This document shows, one piece after another, positions 8,720-53,989 of a stretch of 64,000 nt of DNA. The notes beneath the pieces were generated by a model. The model was not told the origin of the DNA and did no database searches. It was given only the letters and a program-made list of their open reading frames with translations. The translations under genes and the position numbers were made by a program. Numbering within the stretch: position 1 is the stretch's first letter; each line of letters opens with the position of its first letter. This DNA is from Cerasicoccus sp. TK19100 (GTDB lineage Bacteria; Verrucomicrobiota; Verrucomicrobiia; Opitutales; Cerasicoccaceae). The stretch is taken from positions 248,001-312,000 of the forward strand of contig NZ_JAPWDU010000005.1 of the NCBI RefSeq assembly GCF_027257155.1, in the 5' to 3' direction.

Positions 8720-9132
8720 ATGAGGTTGACGGTTTGAGGTCTAATAATTTTTAGCACATCGAGGGGGGCGGGGTAGTGCCCATGGATTTACAAAGGCGGT
8801 CTCGATGGTGCTGCGATTTCGTCAAATATTGATTTATAATGTGACTGATTTGAGTAATAATGCAACAAATCATTTTGTTTTTTTATTAACAGGCTCTTGT
8901 GCTAATTTTTGGCAATAATGGATTTTGGTAATTTACAGAATATCGTCATTCTTGGGCGTTTAATAATGTCAAATTACTGATTGGAGGCATTTTGCGGAAA
9001 CTGTATGAAAGTCCGAGCAACGGTGGTGTGTGCCCAGAAATTTGCCGTTCACAGTCCCCTGCTTAGTCCTGTGAGGACCGATCTGATTGATTTTCGACCA
9101 GGAGGCTCCCAAAAGTTGAGCGGAGTTTTTCG
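8720..9132. other. Intergenic region upstream of giant pseudopilin-like gene
   Basis: An AT-rich stretch of about 410 bases between two minus-strand genes. It holds a partial operator-like repeat at 8861-8882. A short hairpin (GTCCT-GTG-AGGAC) near 9067-9079 could belong to the end of the GH39-like transcript but has no T run. No gene was seen. Confidence 0.45.
8861..8882. promoter_or_regulatory. Partial operator-like repeat, TGCAAC-N10-GTTTTT
   Basis: The left arm with its flank (AATAATGCAAC) is identical to the flank-plus-arm at 38284-38294 and on the other strand of the 39786 site. The right arm, GTTTTT, keeps only GTT. It lies 142 bases upstream of the giant pseudopilin-like gene. Confidence 0.4.
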
Positions 9133-10696: not shown

Positions 10697-10721
10697 TAGT
10701 AACAGAATTAACTCGTTACTA
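10697..10721. promoter_or_regulatory. Operator-like inverted repeat, TAGTAAC-N11-GTTACTA
   Basis: Two perfect 7-base arms separated by 11 bases lie immediately next to the start of the GH39-like gene (start at 10695) and about 120 bases upstream of the divergent lyase-family gene. The spacing is one base longer than at the other sites. It probably binds the same regulator and could control both genes. Confidence 0.6.
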
Positions 10722-25601: not shown

Positions 25602-27275
25602 TTATCCCTTCGCGGGATAGATGGTTATTTTGTCCACACTCAGCTTGGCTTCTTTAGGACCATGAAGGATTACTTCGTTGGTTTCTCCTGCGCGCAGATT
25701 CACCGGCACCCGGATCGTCCTCCAAGTGCGCCAATCTTCGGTTGGTGGTATGTCCACGCTTTCAAGCGTGCCATTGACCTCTATCTGGAGGGTGCATTCG
25801 TCCTTTTGTCCGTTGGCATAGCGAATGCCGATAACTGCAGGCCCACCGGCTCCGCCGTCAATATTCCGGAATTCAATTTCATCTTCCGGCGAGTGAAGGG
25901 AAACATAGCCTCCCATGCTTCCAGGGTTACTGGAAGATTCGCTGGCGTTGCCATTCAAAGTCGCTTTTTCCGCCTGGTAGTAGGGCGGCACCGGATCAAG
26001 TACGCTGACCTCCGGGTTGAACGCCCAGATGGTTGATTCGTCATTTGTTGGAGGAACGACAGTAAGTGGGCTGCCTTCTTCCGCATTAGGAAAGGACAGC
26101 CGCAGCGTTTGCTGATTGAATGGAATGACTCGATACCCCTGGTTGGTGTGCTCCAGCCGCCAAACTTGCTCGGTGACTTTGTCCGTTTCGGCGAGAATTA
26201 CTTGGTTCCCATCCAGGGCCAGGGATAGCTTGTCTGAATAAGCCGGCTGAATGCGATAGTTCCCATTATTCAGGCTCTTGAAGCGCCATTTTTGATTCTC
26301 AGCAGGTGCTGGATACGGGGATCTTCCGAGTTGAACTGTCGTCCCGGGTGTTTCACTGGCATTCGCCGCCTCCATCCGGTATTGAAAATCTTCTTGGGAG
26401 ACGAGGGTGTATAGACCTTCGGCGAGCGGTAGGGCCGGCCAATACTCCCCGCTCAGCCGGTCGACCAGTTGCACCAACTCGTCATATTTCCGCTGGTTCT
26501 TGGCTCCGGCGTTGAAAAATGAGATGCCTGGCATGTCCGGGTAGCGCCGCTTCAGGTCCTCAAACCGCTCTCGCAGATACGCCTCGTTCCATACCTTGTC
26601 ATCTTTCCAGTTCGCGTAGTCCGTGACGTGGCCCAAGCTGTAAAGCGTTTTGCGCATTAGTCCCCGTTGATTGAATTCTTCGAGACGCTCAATTGCCACG
26701 GTCCAGGGAACGCCCAATCCGCGATCTTTGGTTAGTTCATAGCCTTGAACGAGGAATAGGTCGATGGTGCCATCATAGCCCATGTCATAGAGCTGTGTGG
26801 CACCGCCGGAAAGCCAGACGGCCACAAAGGTGTCGGGTTGGTTTGCCTTGCCGAGGCGGGTGCCTTCCGTGATCCAATCGTAGAACTCCTTGTGCTTGGT
26901 GCCCGTCCATTCATCCATACCCAATCCGGCGCGACGGATTGCGTAGGGGCGCCCGTCTTCGGCCTTTTCAGTGAGGCGGCCCAACTGGAACCGCTGCTCC
27001 CAGTAGTCGGGACCGGTGCCGTAGTCCATCTTCCAGTTGCTGCCGAAGATCCAAGCGAGATTTGTTTTGCCCGCTTCATGTGCGTCGTAGGCGTCACCGC
27101 TGGTAACCACGTTGAGATTCGGATAGAGCTCCGGCTTGTTTTTAAGATCGGCCCCATACCACACACGATAAGGATAAGATGGCCAGATCGCTTGCACCGT
27201 GTCTTCCGCATGCAGGTTCGAGGTTATGAGTGAGGCAACAAAAACGAGGTATAGTAACAAAAATATATTTTTCAC
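25602..27275 (-). CDS. Secreted modular enzyme: unrecognised TIM-barrel-like domain + ricin + one CBM35-like module
   Basis: The shortest of three paralogues (557 residues, GTG start). It has a signal peptide (FLLLYLVFVASLITSNLHA), then the unrecognised domain (about 28-285, starting YPYRVWYGAD, with AGLGMDEW, GTIDLFLVQGYELT and SGEYWP), a ricin-type beta-trefoil (about 290-420) and one CBM35-like module (about 432-557, starting YYQAEKATLNGNA). All three paralogues keep the AG-x-MDEW motif, the YDM...GTIDL block and SGEYWP, so these mark the probable active site. It is followed 26 bases downstream by the GPH symporter. An extracellular or periplasmic glycosidase role is inferred from the attached lectin and CBM. 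Confidence 0.72.
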   Translation of the reverse strand: MKNIFLLLYLVFVASLITSNLHAEDTVQAIWPSYPYRVWYGADLKNKPELYPNLNVVTSGDAYDAHEAGKTNLAWIFGSNWKMDYGTGPDYWEQRFQLGRLTEKAEDGRPYAIRRAGLGMDEWTGTKHKEFYDWITEGTRLGKANQPDTFVAVWLSGGATQLYDMGYDGTIDLFLVQGYELTKDRGLGVPWTVAIERLEEFNQRGLMRKTLYSLGHVTDYANWKDDKVWNEAYLRERFEDLKRRYPDMPGISFFNAGAKNQRKYDELVQLVDRLSGEYWPALPLAEGLYTLVSQEDFQYRMEAANASETPGTTVQLGRSPYPAPAENQKWRFKSLNNGNYRIQPAYSDKLSLALDGNQVILAETDKVTEQVWRLEHTNQGYRVIPFNQQTLRLSFPNAEEGSPLTVVPPTNDESTIWAFNPEVSVLDPVPPYYQAEKATLNGNASESSSNPGSMGGYVSLHSPEDEIEFRNIDGGAGGPAVIGIRYANGQKDECTLQIEVNGTLESVDIPPTEDWRTWRTIRVPVNLRAGETNEVILHGPKEAKLSVDKITIYPAKG

Positions 27276-27521: not shown

Positions 27522-29948
27522 TTAGTTCCAGTCGATTCCGCGGACGCCCATGCCGTCTTTCCACGGGTCGGTGTCGGCGATGGGTGAGGCCTCGATCATC
27601 TTAGCCAGCTCGGAGCGATAATTGTAGATATCTTCAGAGCTCTCGGTCCAGTCTTCGCGGCTTCTCACGTAAGTGTTGACCTTGTCGAGGGTGATCTTTG
27701 CTTGGCGCAGCCACGCTTCGTCGTCGCTTTGGCCAGCTTCCTCATACTGGCGAACTTGATGTTGGAGAATCATCCAGTAGGCCAGGTCTTCAAAACCGTC
27801 GCGGTAGTTTTCCGCCCGGATGGTGGGGACCAGTGTGCCGTCGGCCATGATGTTGAAGATGCTGCCGTCGCCGTTGGCGTTGATGTGCTTGGCGAAGGGG
27901 TCCCAGTTGGTATAGGGGAAGTCCTCAATGCCAGGGTTCTGGTCCCAGATGCTCATGTGGTAGTAAAGGAAGCCGTCGGGCTTGTATTTCATATGCATCA
28001 GGCCGGTGAGCACGCGGTTGTCCACTGCCGGATAATCAGTGAAGATGTTGGGGTAGGGGCGAGGTGGCCAGATGCAGGTATACCACCAAACCTTGCGTCC
28101 CAGCTTGTTGGCTTCCTTCGCCAGGGTAGGATTGTAGCGGCTGATGATTGGAACCCAAGCGCCCAGATGCTCAATGGGCGAATTTAAACCATAGGAGTGA
28201 TCTTGGGAAGTGGTCATGGTCAGCAGTTCGGGGAACTCATCGGAGATCCGTTTGGCCGCATTGTTAATGCTCTCCCAGGAGTAGGGGGGCGTTTCGTCGT
28301 AGCCATAGATGTAGGCATGATCCAGCAGGCCGCGCTTTTTTGCTTCTTCATAGTAGGGGCGGACGGACTCGATGTATTTGTCGTCCGCACCGTGGAAGTG
28401 GCTGATGTTGAAGGCGACCAAAGTGCCTTTTTTAACTTGGTGGTCGATGAGTTCCCAGTCGACCGCATCCAGTCGGTTCGGATCGGCCCAGCGATAAATG
28501 TTGTCCATGCCCATGTAGTAATCGTTGAGGACATCCACATGATCGAACTTATGCTTTTCCCAGCTTTCCGGTGTCCGGAAGTCGCCTTCCGGGGCATCCT
28601 TGTCGGCGAAGACATATGTGATCGCGGTGGGGATCGGCGCGTGCTTGGGCACGTTGAATCCATAGACTTCAACGTAAACCGGGAACGTCAGCTCGTCTTG
28701 GCCTTGAGCTGAAACGGTGAGAGTGCCGGAATAAAGGCCGGCTTTTTGGTCGCGGGGTGCGGTGATGCGGACCCACCAAGACTGCAGGTCGCCCAGGGCC
28801 ACGTCGATTGGTTTATCGGTCGCTATGATCGGCTCGGGCCACCAGCCGACATAGTCGACGTTCGGCTCGGTCTTTTGCTCGGTCTTGCTGTAGGCCATCA
28901 GGTCCACATCCACATTGTCGCCGGAGATGGTTTCGCCGTCGGGGCCGGTAAGGTCGGACATAGTGACCGTGGCACCCTTGACATCGCCCTGGAAGGGCAG
29001 AATCGCGACTTGGAAGGCCTCCGTTTCGCCACCGGCGAGGCTGAGCTGCCAGTCGCTGACCATCTCTAGATTGGTCGTCGGCATGTGCTTGGGCATGAGC
29101 TTCACCATCGGAGAGGAGAAGCCGACCAGAAACCCGCCATCGGTGGTGAGTGAATAGTCGGACAAGTAGTTACGGACTTGCTTAAAGCGCTCGACTGTGA
29201 GTTCAGCTTTCCAGATATCATCCGCAAGGGCGACGGCATCTTTGTCCTGTTGCGGGCCGGTTGCCTTTTCTGCCATGTTGTTGAGCCATTCGGTGAGCAT
29301 TTCATGCACAGCTGGTAAGTCTGTCGCGAATGAGCGTGAGGAGGCGCGCACTTCGTCGATCATGGCCAACTGTGTGTCGCGGCGCATGTTTGCGACCGCC
29401 TCCGGCAGTAATGGAGTCTCGGTGTCGGGTGCAGGGTCGTCTTTGTGGAGGGCTACAAAATTATCGATATGAAAATCTGCAGGTTCGCCTTCTGCCACGT
29501 GGAAGGTCATGAAGTGGACATTATCGTGACGGACAAACTTCGGTAGTTTTAGCTTCTCCACGACTCTTTTGGCCGAAAGAGGGGGGAGGGTAACCAAGAA
29601 TTGATACCCGTTTTCGTGATCGACGACAAATCCGACCCGCACTCGAAGTTCCACAGGTGAGCGGTTGACCAGATCAAAAGCCACCCGGTCGTAGGGTTCA
29701 AAGTTGTTGTCCCAGAACCGCAGGTCGAAGCCAGGCTCGGGGGATCCGGGTTCCGCAATCAGCCGAACGGAGGTTGGGCCTTGCGTTCCAAACTGATTGG
29801 ACGCGGATACTGACTGGGTTTCGGGGTCGTCCACCCGCCAGTCTTCCATCTGCCATTCGGGTTCAAAGTCATACATTTGGAATTCTGCGGAAGCGGTCGT
29901 CGCCAACGCAGACACCAGAGTCATCAGGAGGTGTAAGGGTCTTTTCAT
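27522..29948 (-). CDS. GH123-like protein (DUF4091), secreted
   Basis: An 808-residue protein with a signal peptide (MKRPLHLLMTLVSALATTASA). It has an N-terminal jelly-roll-like region starting YDFEPEWQMEDW (about 25-165), a helical linker, a beta-sandwich (about 270-430) and a TIM barrel of the DUF4091/GH123 type (about 440-740). In the barrel, YIYGYDE carries D551-E552, in the position of the Asp-Glu pair that GH123 beta-N-acetylgalactosaminidases use; MTTSQDHSYG and WPPRPYPNIFTDYP are also conserved. A close paralogue is at 39857-42337, sharing even the last residues (DTDPWKDGMGV-GIDWN). The true substrate is not known. The gene is divergent from the CE15-like gene, with an operator-like repeat between them. 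Confidence 0.78.
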   Translation of the reverse strand: MKRPLHLLMTLVSALATTASAEFQMYDFEPEWQMEDWRVDDPETQSVSASNQFGTQGPTSVRLIAEPGSPEPGFDLRFWDNNFEPYDRVAFDLVNRSPVELRVRVGFVVDHENGYQFLVTLPPLSAKRVVEKLKLPKFVRHDNVHFMTFHVAEGEPADFHIDNFVALHKDDPAPDTETPLLPEAVANMRRDTQLAMIDEVRASSRSFATDLPAVHEMLTEWLNNMAEKATGPQQDKDAVALADDIWKAELTVERFKQVRNYLSDYSLTTDGGFLVGFSSPMVKLMPKHMPTTNLEMVSDWQLSLAGGETEAFQVAILPFQGDVKGATVTMSDLTGPDGETISGDNVDVDLMAYSKTEQKTEPNVDYVGWWPEPIIATDKPIDVALGDLQSWWVRITAPRDQKAGLYSGTLTVSAQGQDELTFPVYVEVYGFNVPKHAPIPTAITYVFADKDAPEGDFRTPESWEKHKFDHVDVLNDYYMGMDNIYRWADPNRLDAVDWELIDHQVKKGTLVAFNISHFHGADDKYIESVRPYYEEAKKRGLLDHAYIYGYDETPPYSWESINNAAKRISDEFPELLTMTTSQDHSYGLNSPIEHLGAWVPIISRYNPTLAKEANKLGRKVWWYTCIWPPRPYPNIFTDYPAVDNRVLTGLMHMKYKPDGFLYYHMSIWDQNPGIEDFPYTNWDPFAKHINANGDGSIFNIMADGTLVPTIRAENYRDGFEDLAYWMILQHQVRQYEEAGQSDDEAWLRQAKITLDKVNTYVRSREDWTESSEDIYNYRSELAKMIEASPIADTDPWKDGMGVRGIDWN

Positions 29949-29992: not shown

Positions 29993-30014
29993 AGTAACAA
30001 ATTATCTAGTTGCA
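29993..30014. promoter_or_regulatory. Operator-like inverted repeat, AGTAAC-N10-GTTGCA
   Basis: Arms AGTAAC and GTTGCA with a 10-base spacer, identical in both arms to the site at 39786, which precedes the paralogous GH123-like gene. It lies 44 bases upstream of the minus-strand GH123-like start and 79 bases upstream of the CE15-like start, so it may control both. Confidence 0.65.
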
Positions 30015-30093
30015 TCACATAGCTGTGCTCTCTAGGTTACAAGACTATTGTGTTAACTTAAACCAGATTTCCTGAGCCATACCCTAGCCCCAT

Positions 30094-33000
30094 ATGAAAA
30101 AACAACTGTTTACAGCTAGCCTAACATTTCTCGCGCTCTCTCATATGTCCCTGCACGCAACTGATCTCTCTTGGAAGGGCGGTGACGGCGTATGGGATCT
30201 TGGCATTTACAGCGAACCTTACAGTGGTTCTTGGCCATCTGGCGGAACCTGGACGGGGGCGGCCAACTGGGAAAGTGGCACCACCTACTGGACTAATCAA
30301 GGTAGTGGAACCATTACCGCGACCACCGGGGCGACCGGGCCGGGCTCAGGTGGGCGCGATGCGGCTATTTTCGATGTCGCAGGCGGCGGGCGGATCGAGG
30401 TGAGCGATGTGACCGACATTCGGCCTCAAGGCATTTTTGGTGGTGTTGTTTCATTTCGGGCCAGCGGCTATGAACTGTACTCGGACAGTTTGGATGGCGC
30501 GCGCATCGAAATGAATTTTTCCTCCGGCCTCGAAGTCCGATCCGGAGTGACTGCTAAGGTTGGCTCGGGGATCAACTATGTATTGTCCGGGGGCGACGAG
30601 GTGAGTGGCGGCGGCACATTGGAACTGGCTGGCTCGTTATGGCGCACGTCCAGCGGTGTCCTTCGGGTTGTTGAAGGGACTACTATAAATGTCCTTGAAG
30701 GCGGCAAACTTGGCGGCGACTTTTTGGGGAACAATATCTTTATCGGTACGAATGGACCTGGCGTCCTGAATGTGAATGGAGGCGATGTAAACGTAGGCAA
30801 CGGTACGCAGAATCGCAGTCTGGTTCTTGGCACTGCCTCTAATAGTGATGGCACCGTGGTGAACCTCAACAGCGGCATGATCACAGTCAAAAGCAACGCA
30901 ACTAGTGGCGTCGTTCTTGGCGCGTCCAACATCGGTAGCGGCACAGTCGAGTTCAACCTCAACGGCGGCGTGTTGCAAACGCCGGGCATCCGCTCCGAGG
31001 CGGGGAATGCTATTTTCCGATTTAATGGCGGCCTTTTGCAGACGATCAATGATTCGTTGAACGTTTTCACCGGCGTAGATGCCGTTTACGTAGGGCAGCA
31101 AGGGGCACGGGTCAGTTCAGGGGATGGCTTTGGCGGATACGCGGCCATCTACGAGAAGCCCCTTCTGAGCGATCCCGCGCTCGGTAGCCAGAAGGATGGA
31201 GGGCTGATTAAGCAAGATTTCGGAACGATCACTTTGGCTCCCGGGACGAATTACAACGGCGACACAGTCGTCGAGCGCGGGGTCCTGGTGGTGCCCGATG
31301 CCTTTTTTGACGCTTCGTGCAGCGTGCAACTCGGGCCGAATGGCCGGCTTGAGCTGAACTTCGACGGTGTGGCGACCGTGTCGACCTTTTACATCAATGG
31401 GAAACCGCAATCTATCGGCACTTGGGGTGGGGTAGATAGCGGTGCCACCCATATCACACAGCAGATCAGCGGCAACGGCATTCTTGAGGTCACTGGTGCC
31501 GGCCCTGCGCTACCTGAATTGGTGGCTGCGCAAGGCCCGAACGTGGGTCGTGAATATGATGAGGCAATTGTCGCCTCCATTCCCGATCCTCTGGTTATGG
31601 AAAACGGCCAACCTGTCACCTCCGCAGAGCAATGGATGGAAAGTCGGCGTGGAGAAATTTTGGAATTATTCCGTGAGCATGTCTATGGGCACAATGCAGT
31701 CGAGCGGCCGGAGGATCTTAGCTTCACTGTCGAAGGTCCGTGGTCGGTTGGTGGCGACGCAGCAGGGCGGGCGACCAAAAGCAGAATTACCATTACCTAC
31801 CGCAAGGACGGCAAGGAGGGAAGTTTCCCATTGTATATCCTGACTCCCACCTGGCTCGATAAGCCGAAAGGCATTTTCTTGCTGATCAACATCAACTCTG
31901 AGGGCAACACCACGCATCCGGAGAATAATGGCCGGATACTTCCAGGCGTTGACATCATTAACCGTGGTTATGTCGCGGCAAGTTTTTATAAAAACAACCT
32001 TTCGATCGATAACGAGGATGATGCCTTCAACTCGGGTGTCTTCGAGGTCTTTGGTCCGACCGGGAGCCCGGTGAATGATCGGTATCCAGAGCGCCCCTCC
32101 AATGCTTGGGGCACGATTGGCGCATGGTCCTGGGGTGCAAGCCGATCCATCGATTACTTCAAATCGGTACCTTTGCTTCAGGATATTCCGATCGCCGTTG
32201 TCGGCCATTCTCGTGGCGGCAAGGCGGCGCTCTGGACTGGCGCTCAGGATGAGCGTGTGGATTTGACGATCAGTAATTCCTCAGGCTCGACCGGAGCAGC
32301 CATGGCGCGAACCAAAGGCGGCGAGAGCATCAAGAGGATCAATGATGACTTCGCCCACTGGTTCGCGGATAACTACAAAAATTATAATGAACGCGAAACG
32401 GAGCTTCCTGTCGATCAACATATGTTGATGGCGCTGATCGCCCCGCGGCATCTGTATGTCCAGAGCTCCTTTACCGATTACTGGGCTGATCCGGTCGCTG
32501 AATTCGAATCGGCGCTTCGCGCGGGGCCAGTCTATGATCTCTTTGGGCTGAACATTGTGGATGCCCGTTGGCGTCCCTGGGCGAATGATCCGAAGCATGC
32601 GGGAGATATTGGCTATCATGCCCGCGGCGAGGGGTTTCCCGGTGACACGGGGACCGGTGGCTCACACAGCCTCCGGAGGTATGACTGGGATCAATACCTC
32701 GACTATGCGGATCGGCATCTCAGTAACTACGGCAGTTCAATTCGCAATTGGCGGAGCGACAACAGCCTAAACATCCATGGTATGGATGATCTTAAGGACT
32801 TTTCCGGAGACGGCACACCGAATTTGCTTAAGTATGCGTTCAATTATCCGGTGGACGAAGTCGCCCAAGTCATGGAGCCAGGAGGCACCTCTGGTTTGCC
32901 TCGGTTCTCCTCGCAAAGCGGGAACCTGACTTTTGAGCATTTGCGCAGGTCTCCTGATTCAAATCCCGGGATCGAGTATCGCTTCGAAGAAAGTCCCGAC

Positions 33001-33144
33001 CTCAAATTTTGGACTCCATGGACACCTTCAGGTCAAGCCGTCACCATCGATGCCAACTGGGAGCGGATTACGTATCAACTCGCACCGCTGGCAAGCGAAG
33101 CTAAGAAGTTTTACCGTCTCCGTATCCTTCGAGACTCCTTCTGA
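30094..33144 (+). CDS. CE15-like glucuronoyl esterase fused to a beta-strand-repeat stalk
   Basis: A 1016-residue secreted protein (signal peptide FTASLTFLALSHMSLHA). The first part (about 22-480) consists of autotransporter-associated beta-strand-type repeats (GGLIKQDFGTITLAPG, NGDTVVERG) and closely resembles the neighbouring PEP-CTERM protein. The second part (about 490-900) is an alpha/beta-hydrolase with GHSRGGK and nucleophile S706, VDQHMLMALIAPRHLYV and GYHARGEG, matching CE15 4-O-methyl-glucuronoyl methylesterases. These cleave ester links between glucuronate on xylan and lignin. The C-terminus has a DFSGDGTPNLLKYAF stretch and a W..FYRL module, but no PEP-CTERM. This stalk-enzyme fusion is unusual. 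An operator-like repeat lies upstream. Confidence 0.8.
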   Translation: MKKQLFTASLTFLALSHMSLHATDLSWKGGDGVWDLGIYSEPYSGSWPSGGTWTGAANWESGTTYWTNQGSGTITATTGATGPGSGGRDAAIFDVAGGGRIEVSDVTDIRPQGIFGGVVSFRASGYELYSDSLDGARIEMNFSSGLEVRSGVTAKVGSGINYVLSGGDEVSGGGTLELAGSLWRTSSGVLRVVEGTTINVLEGGKLGGDFLGNNIFIGTNGPGVLNVNGGDVNVGNGTQNRSLVLGTASNSDGTVVNLNSGMITVKSNATSGVVLGASNIGSGTVEFNLNGGVLQTPGIRSEAGNAIFRFNGGLLQTINDSLNVFTGVDAVYVGQQGARVSSGDGFGGYAAIYEKPLLSDPALGSQKDGGLIKQDFGTITLAPGTNYNGDTVVERGVLVVPDAFFDASCSVQLGPNGRLELNFDGVATVSTFYINGKPQSIGTWGGVDSGATHITQQISGNGILEVTGAGPALPELVAAQGPNVGREYDEAIVASIPDPLVMENGQPVTSAEQWMESRRGEILELFREHVYGHNAVERPEDLSFTVEGPWSVGGDAAGRATKSRITITYRKDGKEGSFPLYILTPTWLDKPKGIFLLININSEGNTTHPENNGRILPGVDIINRGYVAASFYKNNLSIDNEDDAFNSGVFEVFGPTGSPVNDRYPERPSNAWGTIGAWSWGASRSIDYFKSVPLLQDIPIAVVGHSRGGKAALWTGAQDERVDLTISNSSGSTGAAMARTKGGESIKRINDDFAHWFADNYKNYNERETELPVDQHMLMALIAPRHLYVQSSFTDYWADPVAEFESALRAGPVYDLFGLNIVDARWRPWANDPKHAGDIGYHARGEGFPGDTGTGGSHSLRRYDWDQYLDYADRHLSNYGSSIRNWRSDNSLNIHGMDDLKDFSGDGTPNLLKYAFNYPVDEVAQVMEPGGTSGLPRFSSQSGNLTFEHLRRSPDSNPGIEYRFEESPDLKFWTPWTPSGQAVTIDANWERITYQLAPLASEAKKFYRLRILRDSF

Positions 33145-33287
33145 AGTCCATTTTATAGAAACGCTATTGAGGAGTTTGGATACAATAACTGGCAGGTGGA
33201 TAATGTCACAATAATTTTCCGTTAGGTTAAGCCGTAATCAGTGCACCTAGCCTAACTCTCAGTCCACTAACAAATATACCCAAGAAA

Positions 33288-34769
33288 ATGAATACTCTAT
33301 TAGTATCGACATCGTCGAATAGACTCATACCCCGGCACAAACTCTTGATGTTGGGTGCCCTTACTGCGATGGCATGTAGTGCTGCGCATGCAGAGAACGT
33401 TTACTGGCTCGGCGACATAAATGGTAATGGTGTCTGGGACACCACAACCGCAAACTGGGCCTTGGGTTCACCAGGTGGTGTTGACACGACTTTTACGAAT
33501 GGTGACAATACGTTCTTTTATTATAGTGGCGGAAATCTCAATTTAACAGAGGATCTCACTACTAATTATCAAGAAATTGGTCAAAGCGGTGGTACTATCG
33601 GTCTCAACTACGTCTTCACGAGTGATGTCGTTGATGGAGTTAATTTGGGGTATACGAACAGAATTAGCATCAACGATGGGAATCAGGCGACTATTGGTAG
33701 TGGGGTTACCGCAATCTTCTCCGGTAGCGATACCAATCTTCACATCGAAGGGGATAGCAGCGCCCAGAGCATCCTGAACATTGATGGCGGTACGGTTCTT
33801 AAGAACAGTTCGAGCGTTTTGAACCTTAGCAATGTCACCGTGAATGTCATCAATGGTGGTGTTTTGGGCGGTGATGCCCAAGGAGGAACGCAAATCTTTT
33901 TCAGGAATTCGTTTTCTACGCTTAACGTCGATTCGGGTGGCCGTGTTCAAGTCGGCAATTCTTCCGGGGGAAGTACTCAATTTCGCGGCCTGATCGTTGG
34001 TGTCGGCGCTGGTGGTGGTGGTGAAGTCAACATCGATGGTGGTCGAGTTGAGAGCTATAATACTGCCGTTTTGCTCGGTGATAACCAAGCTTCCGGCACA
34101 TCTGCGACTATTAATCTCAACGGCGGCGTGCTTTACGCTCCTCAGGTTAGAGCGCAGAACAACAATGGTGGCGTGACCAGCACCCTGAACTTTAACGGTG
34201 GTGTCCTTGAGGTTTCTTCAACGAATGCCATAACCGCCAACTATTTATCGGGGATCACTAATGTGGTTGTTCAGGAAGGCGGCGCGATTATTGATACCAA
34301 TGGTCAGAGTATTACCATCAATCAAATCTTAACTCATGATGTTAACCTCGGCGCGACGGCTGACGGTGGACTGACGAAGCAGGGCGTTGGCACTTTGACG
34401 CTTAATGGCGTCCAGGCATATACTGGGAATACCACCATTCTTGGCGGCACTGATGCAGCCAACCTGAGTGTGCTCAGTATCAATAGCGCGTTCCTTGCAG
34501 ACTCGTCGGAAGTGTATATCGAGGAATTCGGATTTCTTAATCTGAATTTCGCCGGCACTGACACGATAACAGGGCTCTACTTGGACGGCATCGCCATGGC
34601 TCAGGGAACCTGGGGGGCGTCTGGCAGTGGCGCAGACAACATCAATGACACTTACTTCGGCGGCACCGGTCAACTCATGGTCATCCCCGAGGTGAGCTCT
34701 TACGCCATGATCCTCGGAGGATTGAGTCTGGCGCTGATCGTCGCACGGCGGCGCAAAGCTCGCGGATAA
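33288..34769 (+). CDS. PEP-CTERM protein with autotransporter-type beta-strand repeats
   Basis: A 493-residue secreted protein with a signal region (LLMLGALTAMACSAAHA) and a passenger-like beta-strand-repeat body. A typical repeat is GGLTKQGVGTLTLNG, followed by YTGNTTILGG. The C-terminus (PEVSSYAMILGGLSLALIVARRRK) is a PEP-CTERM-type sorting signal in which the third residue is V instead of P; an exosortase should remove the tail and anchor the protein. The body matches the N-terminal stalk of the CE15-like protein just upstream, so the two genes share ancestry. Function is unknown; a surface or scaffold role is inference. Confidence 0.8.
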   Translation: MNTLLVSTSSNRLIPRHKLLMLGALTAMACSAAHAENVYWLGDINGNGVWDTTTANWALGSPGGVDTTFTNGDNTFFYYSGGNLNLTEDLTTNYQEIGQSGGTIGLNYVFTSDVVDGVNLGYTNRISINDGNQATIGSGVTAIFSGSDTNLHIEGDSSAQSILNIDGGTVLKNSSSVLNLSNVTVNVINGGVLGGDAQGGTQIFFRNSFSTLNVDSGGRVQVGNSSGGSTQFRGLIVGVGAGGGGEVNIDGGRVESYNTAVLLGDNQASGTSATINLNGGVLYAPQVRAQNNNGGVTSTLNFNGGVLEVSSTNAITANYLSGITNVVVQEGGAIIDTNGQSITINQILTHDVNLGATADGGLTKQGVGTLTLNGVQAYTGNTTILGGTDAANLSVLSINSAFLADSSEVYIEEFGFLNLNFAGTDTITGLYLDGIAMAQGTWGASGSGADNINDTYFGGTGQLMVIPEVSSYAMILGGLSLALIVARRRKARG

Positions 34770-34792: not shown

Positions 34793-34823
34793 AAGGCCGT
34801 CAGTGAAACTGGCGGCCTTTTTA
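34793..34823 (+). terminator. Terminator after PEP-CTERM gene
   Basis: A 12-base near-perfect stem (AAGGCCGTCAGT / ACTGGCGGCCTT, one G-T pair) with a GAA loop and a T run, 23 bases after the stop of the PEP-CTERM gene at 33288. Confidence 0.75.
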
Positions 34824-34873: not shown

Positions 34874-34914
34874 TTGACATATCAACTATTCGAGTAACAA
34901 TATCTCTTGTTACT
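34874..34914 (+). promoter_or_regulatory. Promoter with overlapping perfect operator, AGTAAC-N10-GTTACT
   Basis: TTGACA at 34874-34879 can serve as a -35 box. About 17-18 bases on, CAATAT-like bases could act as a weak -10. The inverted repeat AGTAAC-N10-GTTACT (34893-34914) has perfect 6-base arms and overlaps the -10 and start area, an ideal place for a repressor. The next gene starts at 34946. Confidence 0.6.
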
Positions 34915-34945
34915 TAAACCCAAAAGTCTTAATTCCCAAAACAAC

Positions 34946-35668
34946 ATGAAGCCAATGACTCTTTATTTTGCAAAATCCACGATGCGCACCGCTGTGAGCA
35001 TCTCCGCTGCATTTCTCTCGCTGGCAACCCTCGCATCTGCTCAGACCATTTTGGTCGACTTCAGTGAAAACAGTGGCGTTGCGTCGCCGAACTGGAATCT
35101 TTCCAACACCGCCAGTTTCAATATCACTGATATGGTGGATTCGAATGGAAACGCCACTGGGATTGACTTGGTATTTACTGCTCCCGGTACGCCATCAGAG
35201 AGCGGTTTATGGGGCGTTACTGGGGCTCCAAGTCCGTTTGACACGTCCGCCGCTTATAATGATGGCCTTTTCGGTGGCTCTGGTGTAATTACCACCTTTG
35301 AACTTCGGAATTTGTCGCCCACGGACACCTATACACTGACGCTCTTTGCGTCCCGCGATACCACTACTAATAGAACAACGAATTACACGGTCACGGGTTC
35401 AGGGACTGGATCCACTTTATCTTTGCAAACATCGGGAGCAAATGTAGGTGGCGCTGGTATCAATCATAATATTAGTAACGTTGCCGTATTCTCCGATATC
35501 TCAGCAAATGGAAGCAACGTGATTACCGTTAGTTTTACTAACCCATCAGATTTTTCTTATCTGAACGCCATGGAGATTCATGTGATTCCTGAGCCGGCCT
35601 CGTTTGCTATGATCCTTGGAGGTATTGGTTTGATGTTGATTTTTGTGCGCCGCAAAATGCGCAGGTAA
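34946..35668 (+). CDS. PEP-CTERM protein with malectin-like domain
   Basis: A 240-residue secreted protein. The start at 34946 (MKPMTLYF) is preferred; ATG at 34982 is also possible. A signal peptide (AAFLSLATLASAQ) is followed by one domain starting TILVDFSE, with the YTLTLFASRDTTTNRTTNYTVTG region that recurs in the chimeric enzyme (16383) and SGNH hydrolase (36176). It ends with IPEPASFAMILGGIGLMLIFVRRK, a standard PEP-CTERM anchor. It seems to be a stand-alone, surface-anchored version of an accessory domain found in the enzymes. It may bind glycan, but that is inference. The gene has its own promoter/operator and terminator. Confidence 0.78.
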   Translation: MKPMTLYFAKSTMRTAVSISAAFLSLATLASAQTILVDFSENSGVASPNWNLSNTASFNITDMVDSNGNATGIDLVFTAPGTPSESGLWGVTGAPSPFDTSAAYNDGLFGGSGVITTFELRNLSPTDTYTLTLFASRDTTTNRTTNYTVTGSGTGSTLSLQTSGANVGGAGINHNISNVAVFSDISANGSNVITVSFTNPSDFSYLNAMEIHVIPEPASFAMILGGIGLMLIFVRRKMRR

Positions 35669-38439: not shown

Positions 38440-39516
38440 TTAGGTGGTCAAGTTGCGGATCACTTTGGTTGGCAGCACTTTGTTCTGTTTGATGCGATCA
38501 CCAATAAGTTTTCCCGCGACCGATCCCATTTCGACGAAGGGGATATCGACTGTGGACAATCCGCCCAAGTGAGCGATCTCGGTTCCCATTCCGGAGATGA
38601 TGCCGACTTTTTCCGGGCAGCGGATGCCGGCCAAGCGGATGGTATCGAGAAGGAGTTTGCAGACGCTGTCTTCCAGACAGAAAATTCCAATGCGCTCGGG
38701 GGCGTTGCGGATGAGTTCGACCAGCTGTTGGCGTTCCCGGTTGTTTGTGGCCAGGCAAACGTCCTCCGGATTGAATTGGGTCAGTTCGCGGGCGGCCTTT
38801 TCGCCTGCCTCGGCCATTTGGTCGACGGCTGAGTCACCCTTGAAGGGAATCGCGATGATGATCCGCTCGTAGTTCTGGTCCAGAAGGTGACTGATCGCCT
38901 GGCGGCCTGCCGTGTCGTAATCGATACTGACCGAAGAGATGCCCTCGACCTTTGTCGATCGCCACAGGAGGACTGCGTTGCGCAGGTCGTCGACGCAGTG
39001 GTCGAGCACGTCTTCGTGCCAAAGATGGTCGAGTAGAAAGCCATGTTGGCTTTGCGGGTTGGTGCGCAACACTCGTCGAAATGACTTGAGCTGTTCCACG
39101 GAGTTTTGGAACTGAGGGGCCTCCTCTGGTTCGGTCAGAGTGACTAGGCGGACATCTGATGGGAACAGCAGGCTGCGACGTGCCTCGGCGCACTGTCTGC
39201 TAAATCCTTGGAGCATTAGTCGATAGCTTACATGCCGCGCGGTGAGCTCGCGCACCAAGCAGAACACGGGTTTGGGGCGTTCTGCCATTTCGCGTCCACT
39301 GGGCAGGAAATAGCGACCGCTGTCGCTGCGCCAGACTAAGCCTTCCTTGTTGAAGCGGCGCAAGACGCGATGGGCAGTCACATTGGACACACCGAACTTG
39401 TCCGCCAGATCCCGCGTGACGGGTAGCGGGTTGCTGGGGTCCCAGTTCCCGTCCTTCAGAAGCTTCAGGATTTCTTTTTCCAGTTTGATGACTTGTTGTC
39501 CTTTTTTTCGCGGCAT
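38440..39516 (-). CDS. GntR-type/LacI-type hybrid transcription regulator
   Basis: A 358-residue cytoplasmic regulator. Residues 1-75 form a GntR-type winged helix-turn-helix (PLPVTRDLADKFGVSNVTAHRVLRRF). Residues from about 80 resemble the LacI-type sugar-binding core, with VSIDYDTAGRQAISHLLDQNYERIIIAIP and IPFVEMGSVAGKLIGDRI. This is the AraR-like architecture that releases DNA when a sugar binds. Its own upstream region (39584-39610) has two TGTAAC copies 21 bases apart, and the 22-base inverted repeats WGHAAC-N10-GTTDCW occur in front of many neighbouring enzyme genes. I infer it is the local regulator of this set. Another regulator elsewhere in the genome remains possible. Confidence 0.82.
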   Translation of the reverse strand: MPRKKGQQVIKLEKEILKLLKDGNWDPSNPLPVTRDLADKFGVSNVTAHRVLRRFNKEGLVWRSDSGRYFLPSGREMAERPKPVFCLVRELTARHVSYRLMLQGFSRQCAEARRSLLFPSDVRLVTLTEPEEAPQFQNSVEQLKSFRRVLRTNPQSQHGFLLDHLWHEDVLDHCVDDLRNAVLLWRSTKVEGISSVSIDYDTAGRQAISHLLDQNYERIIIAIPFKGDSAVDQMAEAGEKAARELTQFNPEDVCLATNNRERQQLVELIRNAPERIGIFCLEDSVCKLLLDTIRLAGIRCPEKVGIISGMGTEIAHLGGLSTVDIPFVEMGSVAGKLIGDRIKQNKVLPTKVIRNLTT

Positions 39517-39785: not shown

Positions 39786-39807
39786 AGTAACAAAAAAACC
39801 TGTTGCA
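39786..39807. promoter_or_regulatory. Operator-like inverted repeat, AGTAAC-N10-GTTGCA
   Basis: The same arms and spacing as at 29993. It lies 50 bases upstream of the chosen start of the second GH123-like gene; the two paralogous genes thus share the same operator. Confidence 0.65.
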
Positions 39808-39856
39808 TTATTGGCTACCTCAACTAGTCTGTATAGGAAATATAAGAACCCGAATT

Positions 39857-49433: not shown

Positions 49434-50129
49434 TTATCCTTGCTCTTCTAGGATCAAGTCGGGAATTAATCGTATGTCGATGTTTCCACGCGTTCGGTCA
49501 TCGCTGGGTGTAATCAACACCAGATAGCGAAAGTTCTCTGAGAAAGTCCAGGTCGAGGCATAGAGGTGCTTTGCTTTCCCCTCGGAGGTTTCTGCAAGTT
49601 TAACGGTGACTTCAAAATCCTTGGGATTGGCCACTCTGGCATATGCGGTGGCTTTGGGATCCAGGAGAAACTTTTGGTTATCAATCATACCGGCTATTTG
49701 CTTCGTAGTGAAATTGAAGATGCGATAGCTACCAGCCGGTGAAGTCTCCAGGCTGTCATCGAGCATGTTGATGATGCATTGTTTGCCGTCTGAATCTGAT
49801 TGTGAAAATACGAGTAGGGGTGCCTGGGGCGCATTTGAAACATCAATGCTGCCGATCGGAGTCCGAACCTTTTCTTTCTTGGAGTTGAGAGACTCAGTAT
49901 AAAATGTAATCGGATTTGGGCCGGAGTAATTTATCCAACCGGTTCTGCTATTGGGGTAGATGCGCATCGGGGTCCCGCCATCTGGCTCCATATAGATGGC
50001 AGATCTGTGGGGATAGTTAATGGCCAGCGCCCGGAACTTTATGTTTATTTGTGGTTGGTTGCCCTGGGCGATCAAAGCGGCCAGTGACAGCAGACATGTC
50101 ATTATTATGTTTTTTTTGTGATTTATCAT
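49434..50129 (-). CDS. Small secreted partner of giant pseudopilin-like protein
   Basis: A 231-residue secreted protein (signal peptide IIMTCLLSLAALIAQG) of no named family. The body starts INIKFRALAINYPHRSAIYMEP, ends with FRYLVLITPSDDRTRG and DLILEEQ, and seems beta-rich. Its ATG overlaps the stop of the giant pseudopilin-like gene by 4 bases (50126-50129), so the two are translationally coupled. The pair at 3826-8719 has the same order. Together they suggest that partner and giant protein act as one system. Confidence 0.68.
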   Translation of the reverse strand: MINHKKNIIMTCLLSLAALIAQGNQPQINIKFRALAINYPHRSAIYMEPDGGTPMRIYPNSRTGWINYSGPNPITFYTESLNSKKEKVRTPIGSIDVSNAPQAPLLVFSQSDSDGKQCIINMLDDSLETSPAGSYRIFNFTTKQIAGMIDNQKFLLDPKATAYARVANPKDFEVTVKLAETSEGKAKHLYASTWTFSENFRYLVLITPSDDRTRGNIDIRLIPDLILEEQG

Positions 50130-53100
50130 ATGTCCTCCTTACTGAGCCACCTCGCGTAGATTATCTCGAAACGTCGACCGAATTGCTTGTTAACGTCACT
50201 GCTTAAATGTGTAAGATGTGTGTCAGGCGAATCTGCGGCTGACTCGACAAACTCAGGTGTTCGGCGGACAAGTACTTCAATGACGGCTTCAGCTTCCACT
50301 CCATCAGTGAGTTGGTTCTTGGCGTTGCCGTATGATCGAATGATGAAAGTATCTGATCGCGCGGATAGGTAGGGGGCGAGTGGCGTGAGCACATCGGCTT
50401 GCGTTAAATACTGGGGCAGGCCTACGCCTGTTTTTGCGGTTAGGTTCTCCTTGTGGAAATACGACTTCGCCTCGGTGTATGCATCTTCGTAGAGAAAATC
50501 TTTATTAATGCCCAAAGAATCTATTGCGGCTTGTATCACGCCTTTTTTACCATTATCGGTTTTGGACAATTCCCGATTTACAAAATCAGATAGAGATAGA
50601 AAGGGGCCGCGTTCTTTGACCTCGTTCACGATTGCTTGAGCCAATGCTCGACGCTGAATCGCATCCAAACCTTTGGGGCCACGCCAAGCTTCTGCGACTG
50701 GGCCATTGGGTAGCGTTGTTCGCGGAAATATGGTGTATTCGGCGTTGTTCTCGGTTGCATATCCGGTGAGCGGATCAAGATAGGTGAAGTCGTTACCTAG
50801 GGTTGAAGCAAGCAACGCATCCCAGGCATCCACAGAGAGGCTGTTGACGTTGAATCCGCCGGTCGTTGCGAAGTAGCGAGCAGTTTTGCTGAAGCCATCG
50901 ACGGCTCCCAAGTCTTGGACAAACTGGCTTGATTCTGCACTTTGGCTACCATCCATTAAATCCGGTGGCCCAACGTATTTCATGCGCTCGTTACTTAGCT
51001 CTGGAAGCTTGTTTGTGGTGCGCGATGTTTCAACGATGTTGGACAAGGTTGTGGTGAGATTCTCGACTTGCTGCACATCGGCGCTTAAGTCCATTTGGGG
51101 CGTAAGCGAAGAGAAGAAGTAGTCATCGAAAAGAGCCTGGTTGGATAGATATGAGAGGTCGTATTGCGTGTAGCGTGCGTTGTTATTCTCACCGATAACA
51201 CCATCGAGCTCAAAGCCGCCACCGGGCCAGGAATTAGCAATGGCTTGGCCGGGCATATAGGCCGAGTCGGCGATGTGGGCGTGCTGCAGCGATGCCAGAG
51301 AGCGAAGCGGATATGTCGGAATTTCAGAAACGACTAAGTGGCTTTCTGATTCTGAGGAGTAACCCTCGCCGAAAAAACCGCGATCGTTTAGTGCCTGGAT
51401 GTCTGTGTAGTTGCTCATCGGGCCCATTTGATAGGTGTAGGGCGTGGATTCTACTCCATGCGAAAACTGCCCATCCACGTTTCCGGAAAATGGTGACATG
51501 CTACCGATAAACTCGGCAGGCGATGGCACCAGGGCCAAGTCCGGTAGAACTGGATTCTGATATAAGCCGATGTACATAAACGGCATTCTTTTATTGGGGT
51601 AAGACCCTATCGCGGCGGGATTGATCAGCATGGGGAACTGTCCGCCGCTGCCGCCTTGTCCGTAGAGGAGATGATGTAAATTCTCGGCTTTGCCGTTTTC
51701 TTTTGGGCCATGGAGTGCGATGAAAATCTGTTGAATCGTAGTGTCGGTTTCAACTAAGCTACCACCATTGCTCAATTCGCTTTCAGGGACGTAGGCTTTG
51801 GTTGTGGTAATATTGTTACTGGTTATCGATCGCCTGTCTCCCCAGTTGCTTTTTGAAAAACCAGTCCACGGGTAAATGTTGAGATCCATCATCGGTGAAT
51901 TACTGCTATTGACTTGATGAATGATGCCGTTGTTGGCTGGATCATGGAATGTGTTTAAGCGACGCCCCAGCAAGATACCGCCTTGCTTATTGAACCCGGG
52001 TGCCAATTGAATCGCACGCGTATTTTCATCTGCGACAGGAATGAGGTCAGTATATGGCGTGGGCTCTGATCTTGGGTCGGAGAAAAAGCGAACCTCTCCT
52101 GGTTCAAGAACTATAGTGGAATTGACATCACCGATAATCAGGTCAATCGCCCCAAAGTAGCCGGGCTCCATGATACGTCTTGTTGCCGCGAGTTCGCAGG
52201 TGATTTGTGGAATGGACAGTATGTTTTTGTCCAAGTTATTAAACGCCAGGAGATTGTTGCCTGATGTCGTTTGATAGTTGGGCAGGTGTTGGTTTGCAGC
52301 GGTTAATGTGCTGGGAGCTAGTGAAAACAAATATCCAAATGCGCCACTTGTTTGAATCTTGATGCCGCCATTGAACTTCATGGCGACATTGTATGGGTTC
52401 CATAGGCAGACCACTGGCTCTATAACCAGTGATATTGCGTCAGTGGTGCCCCCGGTGGATTCAAATACTCCGCCTCGAGGCGCAGTTCCTCCTGTCCGAG
52501 TGGTTTCGCCTTCGGGGATGTATTCGTATTCTGGAACATTCTGGTCTTCGTAGAGCGAAAAAATGTAGATGACCCGGTTCATGATGGGCATTACTTCGTG
52601 CTCGGTGAGCCGGGTGACTGGCTCATTCGCAAATCCCGTTTTAGTATTTACGGTTGTATTCACGTAGTTGTTGCCGTTCTTGATGTCTCCGCCGTGATCG
52701 GATTCCAGTGTCCAGAAATAGCCTTTCTCGCCGCCTCTGACTCCGAGGTCTTCTGCATTTGGACCGAAGGGGCGCATGGTGACTGTTGGGCGTGTGTTGT
52801 TCTTGGTGATATCCTTGTAGAGACGGTAAAAATCGCGCAGCTTATGCCAAGTGGGGCCGCGAATAAAGGCGTTGTCACCATGTTCAGGGACCGGCTCCAT
52901 AAACAAGTAGCTGACTTGATCATTGGTAGCTGGGTCGATGTAAGAGTCCCCGTCGGTCGGTGGTAATTGGCTCCAATCTGCAAATTCCGGGCGAGCTGTT
53001 TCGCCGCTGTAGGGGGTTAGGGCAAAGGCGTCGTCATCCATTTCGAACAGTAGACTCAGGTCTTTCTTTAATCCCCCGTCCCGCGTGTTCGTTTGCAGAC

Positions 53101-53989
53101 TTATTGAGTTATAAGTAACGTCATGGAAATGCTCTCTCAGCGCAGCACCCCATGTTGAGCTGCCATTGCTCAACGCGGGATCTGCCAAGATCATGTCTTG
53201 CGCGCTACTGGTTCGGTCAACTGCTTTTGCGAGCTCGGTGGAGTCTTCCCATTTTATCGATTCCAAGCCGTTGATGACATGTGGTTGATATCGTGTTGGT
53301 GCGCTAAGCTCCATGCGTGACATCACATTCGGTGTAACATCCGGATGAGCTGCATCTCCGCGCTCCAGTCGGCTGGTTAAGTTCACATCCGCTTTTCGTC
53401 CTTCATCGGCAATCCAGTAAGCGTACTCGCCCGAAGAATCGATATCTACTTTGGGGGCGGCGACGTAGTTACTCACTCCCGTAGTCGTTCCTGCACCGAC
53501 TAATACAACTGACGTATCAGGGTCGACTGGTGTGCCATCGCCACGGAGTAAGTTTCCTACTGGTGGGATCGCATTTGCATGTTTTTCATAGCCCGATACT
53601 AGCCAGCCAATGTTTTTGCCGTAGTTGAGGTTGGCGGATCCATCGGCGCTAACTTTTTGGGTGTCCCAAACTCCAGTCCAGTGGTAAGTGGGCGCGGTTT
53701 CAGCCAAATCCGATTGCAGATAGATTGGCGATGCGCTTGTTCGTTGGTCCATGCCCAGTTGTTGTTGCAGGTTGCCGAGTGCAACGTTCAGCCCAAAGAG
53801 CGCATTCATGCGTGCTTGGGTTTGTTGTTTGGATACCGATGATGTTCCCAGCTCAATTTGAGTGGTGACCGCCAATCCCATGAGTATGAGGAACATCATG
53901 GCCATCAGGGATAGAGCGATCACCAGTGCGAATCCTTTGCTGTGGGAACGACTGGTGTGGGGGGGTGGTTTGGGGGTGTTGGGGATCAT
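50126..53989 (-). CDS. Giant pseudopilin-like protein (second copy)
   Basis: A 1287-residue protein with a prepilin-type N-terminus: a basic leader, then KG followed by FALVIALSLMAMMFLILMG, with a predicted cut before F and no glutamate at +5. NALFGLNVALGNLQQQLGMDQRTSA matches the first copy. Near the C-terminus ALAQAIVNEVKERGPFLSLSDFVNREL resembles GspK, followed by LSARSDTFIIRSYGN and EVLVRRTPEFVES. The middle carries PLRSLASLQHAHI, also shared with the first copy. Overall similarity is limited outside these blocks, so the two copies diverged long ago. It probably sits in the envelope and uses a pilus-like secretion machine encoded elsewhere. Confidence 0.7.
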   Translation of the reverse strand: MIPNTPKPPPHTSRSHSKGFALVIALSLMAMMFLILMGLAVTTQIELGTSSVSKQQTQARMNALFGLNVALGNLQQQLGMDQRTSASPIYLQSDLAETAPTYHWTGVWDTQKVSADGSANLNYGKNIGWLVSGYEKHANAIPPVGNLLRGDGTPVDPDTSVVLVGAGTTTGVSNYVAAPKVDIDSSGEYAYWIADEGRKADVNLTSRLERGDAAHPDVTPNVMSRMELSAPTRYQPHVINGLESIKWEDSTELAKAVDRTSSAQDMILADPALSNGSSTWGAALREHFHDVTYNSISLQTNTRDGGLKKDLSLLFEMDDDAFALTPYSGETARPEFADWSQLPPTDGDSYIDPATNDQVSYLFMEPVPEHGDNAFIRGPTWHKLRDFYRLYKDITKNNTRPTVTMRPFGPNAEDLGVRGGEKGYFWTLESDHGGDIKNGNNYVNTTVNTKTGFANEPVTRLTEHEVMPIMNRVIYIFSLYEDQNVPEYEYIPEGETTRTGGTAPRGGVFESTGGTTDAISLVIEPVVCLWNPYNVAMKFNGGIKIQTSGAFGYLFSLAPSTLTAANQHLPNYQTTSGNNLLAFNNLDKNILSIPQITCELAATRRIMEPGYFGAIDLIIGDVNSTIVLEPGEVRFFSDPRSEPTPYTDLIPVADENTRAIQLAPGFNKQGGILLGRRLNTFHDPANNGIIHQVNSSNSPMMDLNIYPWTGFSKSNWGDRRSITSNNITTTKAYVPESELSNGGSLVETDTTIQQIFIALHGPKENGKAENLHHLLYGQGGSGGQFPMLINPAAIGSYPNKRMPFMYIGLYQNPVLPDLALVPSPAEFIGSMSPFSGNVDGQFSHGVESTPYTYQMGPMSNYTDIQALNDRGFFGEGYSSESESHLVVSEIPTYPLRSLASLQHAHIADSAYMPGQAIANSWPGGGFELDGVIGENNNARYTQYDLSYLSNQALFDDYFFSSLTPQMDLSADVQQVENLTTTLSNIVETSRTTNKLPELSNERMKYVGPPDLMDGSQSAESSQFVQDLGAVDGFSKTARYFATTGGFNVNSLSVDAWDALLASTLGNDFTYLDPLTGYATENNAEYTIFPRTTLPNGPVAEAWRGPKGLDAIQRRALAQAIVNEVKERGPFLSLSDFVNRELSKTDNGKKGVIQAAIDSLGINKDFLYEDAYTEAKSYFHKENLTAKTGVGLPQYLTQADVLTPLAPYLSARSDTFIIRSYGNAKNQLTDGVEAEAVIEVLVRRTPEFVESAADSPDTHLTHLSSDVNKQFGRRFEIIYARWLSKEDI

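Follow-up and report, generated by a model that had tools for sequence, protein, structure and literature searches.

Two neighbouring genes of Cerasicoccus sp. TK19100, a member of the Verrucomicrobiota, raise the question of why one kind of extracellular stalk should carry an esterase in one gene and an exosortase-type tail in the next, and of how the esterase is held at the cell. The genes lie in a 64,000-nucleotide stretch of contig NZ_JAPWDU010000005.1 (positions 248,001 to 312,000; termed the window below, with positions counted from its first letter), which belongs to a genome assembly of 13 contigs and 5.07 Mb. A first-pass annotation of this DNA proposed that the two stalks pair and thereby bring the esterase to the cell. 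Such pairing is not supported here: the esterase has a C-terminal domain (CTD) of its own, a related genome has the esterase gene with no stand-alone partner found, and in a tree the esterase stalks group with a third stalk rather than with their neighbour, although one clade with the neighbour is not rejected. Separate anchoring of the two stalk proteins agrees better with the data than tethering by stalk pairing. The reading that we adopt, with somewhat better than even confidence, is that the genes encode two paralogous stalk proteins of the cell surface, which belong to the same polysaccharide-utilisation regulon and have alternative C-terminal ends or anchors.

The first gene (30094–33144, forward strand; the fused gene) encodes 1016 amino acids (aa) and the second (33288–34769, forward strand; the stand-alone stalk gene) encodes 493 aa. 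Both products begin with a signal peptide, assigned by eye. The fused protein continues with a beta-strand-repeat stalk (residues 23–474; 30160–31515, forward strand), a CE15 catalytic domain (residues 489–877; 31558–32724, forward strand) and the CTD (residues 898–1016; 32785–33141, forward strand); the stalk and esterase were recognized in the first-pass annotation and the CTD was omitted. The stand-alone protein consists of a beta-helix and a PEP-CTERM-like tail. The two stalks are identical in 150 of 505 aligned columns (30%, BLASTP, E 2e-33; residues 2–476 of the fused protein against 17–469 of its neighbour), which confirms the proposed homology of the N-terminal ~480 residues of the esterase with the adjacent protein. 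Against 500 shuffles, the N-terminal stalk halves reach a z of 10 and the C-terminal halves a z of 21, and within this genome each stalk is the sole match of the other over most of its length.

Both stalks resemble known repeat families to different extents. The stand-alone stalk matches the beta-strand-repeat model TIGR02601 at 28.1 bits (cut-off 19.85). PATR scores in a protein scan are 16.9 bits for the fused stalk, in which one weak unit spans residues 371–400, and 25.8 bits for the stand-alone stalk, both under the Pfam cut-off of 27, and the latter reaches 31.1 bits in a genome search. Neither a choice_anch model of NCBIfam (stalk scan, E≤1) nor an autotransporter barrel family of Pfam (both proteins, E≤1, with HMMER filters that drop most weak matches) was matched. 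The C-terminal stalk half combines a PATR unit with a cap that reads GTWG..SGA, a module common in the phylum: a search with a three-row stalk alignment, in which four candidates were scored per genome, gave matches at E≤1e-12 in at least 32 of 387 genomes, and most of the matches listed cover only parts of the second half. The genome itself has 24 PATR matches, which fall into nine open reading frames (ORFs) when grouped by place and frame length. A profile search of contigs elsewhere with the stalk alignment and two peptide patterns returned 77 stretches, among them one weak partial relative (27%) on a Bordetella hinzii contig. Among other PATR genes, a 2468-aa ORF of this genome with many repeats and a PEP-CTERM end (locus L044, G000:C10:122000-136000) adjoins a 1244-aa PATR ORF with an end that looks similar by eye. 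A 534-aa ORF of locus L009 (1483–3087, reverse strand) shows, close to a PEP-CTERM-like end, a PATR unit with the cap seen in the stalks, and its N-terminal region resembles, by eye, an NlpC/CHAP-type hydrolase.

Structures were predicted with AlphaFold2 as monomers from alignments assembled in the analysis. The stand-alone protein (mean predicted local distance difference test, pLDDT, 66.3; good for approximately residues 130–420) is modelled as an autotransporter-type parallel beta-helix, with VIA-align matches to UpaB (Z 20.1, 5.0 Å over 320 residues) and Ag43 (Z 13.8) and many further beta-helices ranking under UpaB; a Foldseek search with the same model returned nothing at E≤0.001, the best match being Ag43b at E 0.02. 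The fused protein model (mean pLDDT 66.9) is good in the CE15 domain and, within its stalk, only at approximately residues 120–320. The VIA-align matches listed for the full fused model are CE15 and related hydrolases, so that the beta-helix result belongs to the stand-alone model only. Structure prediction, suggested by the first-pass annotation as a check on the stalks, has thus yielded a fold for the stand-alone stalk and a confident model of part of its fused relative.

The catalytic domain is CE15-like, as had been supposed. It matches PF22244 at 107.4 bits (cut-off 27), its best relatives in the PDB are chains of OtCE15A from Opitutus terrae (E 5e-66, 6syu), and its model superposes on 6syv with Z 49.0 (2.1 Å over 370 residues) and on 6ehn with Z 46.0. 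A Ser-His-acid triad and the G-x-S-R-x-G motif are present: Ser706 (codon 32209–32211, in GHSRGGK), His858 (32665–32667) and Asp795 (32476–32478), all on the forward strand, align with Ser267, His408 and Asp356 of OtCE15A once our shift of 11 between chain and published numbering is applied. The position of Glu290 in OtCE15A is occupied by Ser729. Glu290 and Asp356 are reported to be redundant in OtCE15A (PMC6937553), and MZ0003 is reported to have no Glu at the fungal position and to use Asp332 instead (PMC5722869). Judged from these residues, the CE15 enzyme of the fused gene is probably active. Among the 17 CE15 ORFs listed from relatives (two of which come from locus L028, one of these being truncated by the locus end), 13 have Asn at the Glu290 position, and the other four have Gln, Asp, Cys or Glu there, one ORF each. 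Sixteen of these ORFs are 389–508 aa long and one is 534 aa, which judged by length is too short for a stalk of 450 residues. Elsewhere in the order, stretch G025:C4:229126-237055 contains six tandem CE15 matches in 8 kb, one with a stop.

The ~115-residue CTD that ends the esterase is a recurrent module. It was defined by iterated profile searches over fetched loci and a 16-row alignment, and follows the rough pattern DxDGDGxxNLLEYAxxxxP...FxRR...YxxExSxDLxxW...FxRLxV. The family has 43 matches at E≤0.001 in this genome and occurs in at least 90 of 194 genomes of the phylum at E≤1e-4 (up to 23 candidates scored per genome). Thirty loci of the genome were taken, 29 of which gave an ORF that matched again; the domain ends at most six residues from the C-terminus in 27 of them, and the other two, which are partial matches, leave 27 and 60 residues. 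No Pfam or NCBIfam model exceeds its cut-off for the 16 aligned members; the best matches, all under the cut-off, are to TSP3_bac (two of 16, E 4e-4), DUF3999 (one of 16) and Amuc_1099_fam (five of 16, best E 6e-4). Kinship with Amuc_1099 was considered and set aside since these matches lie under the cut-off and cover only ~30 residues. Our literature search, from whose coverage most subscription papers were absent, listed no description of the domain, a result that does not prove that none exists. Pfam domains occur on 15 of the 20 CTD ORFs of the genome that were scanned (long ones being cut ~500 residues upstream of the CTD) and for the most part belong to extracellular types (subtilase, sulfatase, heparinase-like, GDSL hydrolase, cohesin, fn3, PKD and Ig-like). 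Within the window, the CTD also ends a 1068-aa protein (57590–60793, reverse strand) with S9-peptidase-like, F5/8-type C, fn3 and laminin-G-like regions.

The stand-alone stalk ends differently. Its tail (residues 467–493; 34686–34766, forward strand) has a motif, a hydrophobic helix and a basic end (RRRK), as expected of the PEP-CTERM signal named in the first-pass annotation, with PEV in place of PEP and a score of 12 bits that falls under the Pfam cut-off of 20.7. The tail is 45% identical over 42 residues (E 4e-9) to that of the third gene (34907–35668, forward strand; likelier start at the ATG at 34946), a small PEP-CTERM protein that does exceed the cut-off (24.5 bits), and it is modelled as a helix at residues 472–492 with low confidence (pLDDT 44–61). 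The genome has 87 PEP-CTERM matches, one of them under the cut-off, and the stand-alone stalk is not among them. Homologues of exosortase, for which the first-pass annotation had proposed a search, are present as five TIGR02602 matches (E≤0.001, best 92.5 bits); none of the five reaches the cut-off of 105.55 in a scan with this general model alone.

The two endings alternate on related bodies. Among 34 distinct stalk ORFs of the phylum, 12 carry the CTD by profile match and four end in a PEP-CTERM-like tail by eye, while many of the remainder run off the end of the locus or have another architecture. The combination of stalk and CTD thus recurs, and the fused gene is an instance of it with CE15 placed between the two. 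In the Cerasicoccus genome, the 88 PEP-CTERM ORFs (the 87 Pfam matches and the stand-alone stalk) and the 43 CTD ORFs have no member in common. With tails removed before bodies were compared, homologous bodies (E≤0.001) were found in three of 17 PEP-CTERM/CTD pairs within 6.5 kb of each other, compared with seven of 3767 other pairs (Fisher p 9e-6; 6e-4 without the window pair). By comparison, neighbouring PEP-CTERM ORFs share a body in 0/15 cases (36/3813 for others). The second pair (locus L136; 4200–4934, forward strand, and 5541–6701, reverse strand) comprises adjacent choice-of-anchor M proteins (64.5 and 57.7 bits, NCBIfam cut-off 55), one with a PEP-CTERM end and one with a CTD. The third (L137; 677–1408 and 1443–2771, both forward strand) has a PEP-CTERM and a CTD protein with a common body in stop-to-stop frames 35 nt apart, and NCBIfam finds no domain in that body at E≤0.01 except PEP-CTERM-related models. 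A candidate pair at L138 (E 4e-4) was rejected since it gave no match once tails were cut and the low-complexity filter was on; the regular expression used for PEP-CTERM tails in the first pair listing was rough. CTD genes also lie within 5 kb of a PEP-CTERM gene in 12 of 43 cases compared with 6.2 expected, which is a weak signal (p 0.014).

Stalk genes themselves are paired in another family of the same class. In G552 (L250, G552:C4:64000-78000), a CTD stalk ORF (6677–8341, reverse strand) is followed by a PEP-CTERM stalk ORF (5224–6813, reverse strand; both coordinates are stop-to-stop frames), which is the order seen in the window, and the bodies are 59% identical over 326 residues (E 3e-98). 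Because an adjacent pair with both tails occurs in G552, the pairing of stalk genes is no freak. This pair adds weight to a broader proposal, which we rate at slightly less than an even chance: that the unnamed CTD serves Verrucomicrobiota as a sorting or attachment domain in parallel with PEP-CTERM and has dozens of client proteins per genome, and that the occurrence of one extracellular domain in two differently anchored forms in neighbouring genes is deliberate, with the esterase spliced into the CTD form. The same pair also adds weight to an interaction between stalks, which is weighed below.

The strongest competitor to a sorting role for the CTD is that the domain could merely be a carbohydrate-binding or Ig-like module, in which case the esterase would be freely secreted and would stick to polysaccharide through its stalk and CTD. 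The second half of the CTD is indeed modelled as strands (residues 937–1013; pLDDT 70–77 for approximately residues 941–1000), and CTDs occur on proteins with many other extracellular domains, which makes this a serious if rather unlikely alternative. Binding modules usually shift position within proteins. The C-terminal position of the CTD across unrelated proteins and its alternation with PEP-CTERM tails are the pattern of a sorting tag and speak against a role in binding alone.

The expectation that both stalk proteins belong to one regulon rests on their surroundings. Genes near the pair encode GH39, GH31, GH35, GH43 and GH123-like glycoside hydrolases (GH), an alginate-lyase-like protein and sugar transporters, and the locus is therefore regarded as a polysaccharide-utilisation locus. 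An operator-like palindrome, AGTAACAA-N6-TTGTTACTT, was derived from a site at 34893–34915 upstream of the third gene and recurs with three mismatches each at 29993–30015, upstream of the fused gene and between it and a divergent GH123-like gene (27522–29948, reverse strand, by profile matches), and at 39786–39808, upstream of a second GH123-like gene. Counted by strand, the pattern has six matches compared with a shuffle mean of 0.08 and a maximum of 2. The natural candidate for binding these palindromes is a regulator with a GntR-type helix-turn-helix and a periplasmic-binding-like domain (38440–39516, reverse strand; profile matches). Weaker palindromes that lie at the beginning of other locus genes or upstream of them (8860–8882, 10698–10720 and 27253–27275) were picked up with a weight matrix built from the three window sites, and the ranking of operators within the window by this matrix is circular for that reason. 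The fused and stand-alone genes are 143 nt apart and are probably co-transcribed, to judge from the layout of the sequence; a hairpin whose 12-nt arms are 92% complementary, with a T-run directly behind it (34793–34819, forward strand), is a likely terminator 3′ of the stand-alone gene.

Conservation of the locus bears directly on whether the stalks need each other. In an order-wide search of 273 genomes with a two-row stalk alignment (E≤1e-10), at least eight genomes match (up to five candidates scored per genome), and the full stalk is matched only in Cerasicoccus sp. TK19100 and in G076, which belongs to another family. The G076 orthologue of the fused gene is 54% identical over 1026 columns and keeps the stalk, CE15 domain and CTD. 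Close to it are a regulator that shares 85% identity with that of the window and a GH123-like gene that shares 45% with the gene at 27522–29948. When the three-site matrix was run over 19.5 kb of G076, its top place was just upstream of the fused gene; the score of 12.4 is under all 14 window rows listed (at least 13.8), and the strict palindrome pattern has no match in the G076 region searched. The stand-alone stalk as a query in G076 (E≤0.001) matched only the fused gene (E 1.6e-33). A PEP-CTERM-like protein adjoins the G076 fused gene and matches the stand-alone stalk in its tail only (43 residues, E 2e-4), and its comparison with the fused and third proteins of the window is not significant (E 0.9 and 0.16). 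In three genomes of the same genus as Cerasicoccus sp. TK19100, the fused protein as a query matched nothing at E≤1e-5; taken together with the 85% identity of the regulator, this suggests from sequence comparison that the locus was acquired by horizontal transfer.

Two trees were built from the C-terminal stalk half. The first had 36 rows, namely 33 ORFs of the phylum that match the stand-alone stalk, this stalk itself and both fused stalks, leaving out three second copies of one place and other PATR genes of the Cerasicoccus genome. It places the fused stalks together (100/100) and next to L070, which comes from another family and is a stalk that ends in a CTD (94/79), while the stand-alone stalk stands apart on a fork that the tree does not resolve; the bootstrap of this tree had not converged. 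In a second tree of 25 rows, from which 11 long-branched loci had been dropped, forcing the stand-alone and fused stalks into one clade costs 6.4 log units and is not rejected by the approximately unbiased (AU) test (p-AU 0.11). A local duplication as the source of the window pair was accordingly discarded because the fused stalks join L070 instead, yet the AU test does not reject a single clade.

It is against this record that the tethering model has to be judged, in which the stalks bind each other and the exosortase-sorted stand-alone stalk holds the esterase to the cell. The model has real attractions. Homologous stalks lie side by side and probably share a transcript, one-body/two-tail gene pairs recur (including the adjacent stalk genes of G552), and the stand-alone model is an autotransporter-type beta-helix like UpaB and Ag43. 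Ag43 passengers are reported to associate homotypically and, in very few combinations, heterotypically (PMC6668479), which makes tethering possible in principle. However, G076 keeps the fused gene with nothing else there that matches the stand-alone stalk, the esterase has a CTD of its own, and the fused stalks join L070 in the tree rather than their neighbour (with the reservation that one clade is not rejected, p-AU 0.11). We consider tethering improbable. Least probable of all is duplication of a stalk gene followed by a chance CE15 fusion, with no functional meaning in the pair: the stalks are each other's sole near-full-length match in the genome and the fused gene is found in at least two of 273 order genomes, but the same three-part gene with matching genes nearby occurs in another family at 54% identity, and the 30% identity of the window pair would be at odds with recent duplication.

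Two independently anchored stalk proteins thus remain the preferred reading, and they would function as follows. The esterase would be exported by means of its signal peptide, and its CE15 domain (Ser706-His858-Asp795) would cleave uronate esters on polysaccharide, with the stalk serving as a spacer or glycan-contact module. The CTD may act as a sorting or attachment signal, and because the esterase has this domain it probably needs no neighbour to reach the cell. The neighbouring protein would be sorted by exosortase and so display a stalk of like kind at the surface.

Several observations weigh against this reading. Inspection of the CTD by eye reveals no clear membrane helix or basic tail, its best match among PDB sequences is insignificant (E 0.14), and its first part (residues 898–940) is modelled at pLDDT <52; the fused stalk is also modelled poorly at residues 1–87 and approximately 342–487. 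Neighbouring CTD ORFs share a body in one of three cases (19/900 for others), adjacent paralogues can be simple tandem duplicates, and the shared-body result consists of three pairs plus that of G552, a chance encounter among the loci retrieved. With regard to co-transcription, the pattern search gave no operator-like site for the stand-alone gene, and the coding strand of the 143-nt gap has a promoter-like match (33177–33204, 9/12); eight such matches occur in the region compared with 6.3 expected. A terminator scan listed none in the gap, and the same scan missed the hairpin at 34793. Finally, the G076 assembly is 96% complete and lies in ~140 contigs, so that a stand-alone partner could have been missed there.

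Beyond the stalk pair, the window includes two large ORFs of 1354 and 1287 aa (4655–8719 and 50126–53989, both reverse strand) with no Pfam match at E≤1e-5. The wider interest of the locus shifts to the CTD, a C-terminal module absent from the catalogues that recurs and takes turns with PEP-CTERM. Should it prove to be a sorting domain, it could contribute to an explanation of how large secreted enzymes are placed in a phylum rich in polysaccharide degraders, and its dozens of clients in one genome would offer a handle for finding the machinery by co-occurrence. PEP-CTERM and EpsH are reported to have been linked in this manner (PMC1569441). The CE15 fusion is, in addition, a further arrangement in an enzyme family of applied interest.

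Compared with known systems, the window enzyme shares the fold, the GHSRxGK motif, and a triad of Ser, His and an acid at the Asp356 position with CE15 glucuronoyl esterases such as OtCE15A and MZ0003 (the latter from a marine metagenome), and differs from them in Ser729 at the Glu290 position and in its place between a stalk and a CTD. The choice-of-anchor families are so named because one domain occurs with differing anchors. As in choice_anch_M (NF038134), one extracellular domain is here combined with different C-terminal ends, in adjacent genes, whereas the stalk matches no choice_anch model and the CTD is no catalogued anchor. With the PEP-CTERM/exosortase system, the locus has in common the tails of the stand-alone stalk and third gene and the presence of exosortase homologues in the genome, but the esterase lacks such a tail and the exosortase matches fall under the TIGR02602 cut-off. 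The parallel beta-helix of the stand-alone model and its PATR-like repeat are reminiscent of Type V autotransporter passengers (UpaB, Ag43), although no barrel translocator is among the Pfam matches of either protein. Type IX secretion CTDs are folded beta domains that form the very end of many secreted enzymes. The window CTD resembles them by analogy of working only: none of 16 CTDs matches a Pfam or NCBIfam sorting-domain model at E≤0.1, in an analysis that did not include a search for Type IX secretion genes.

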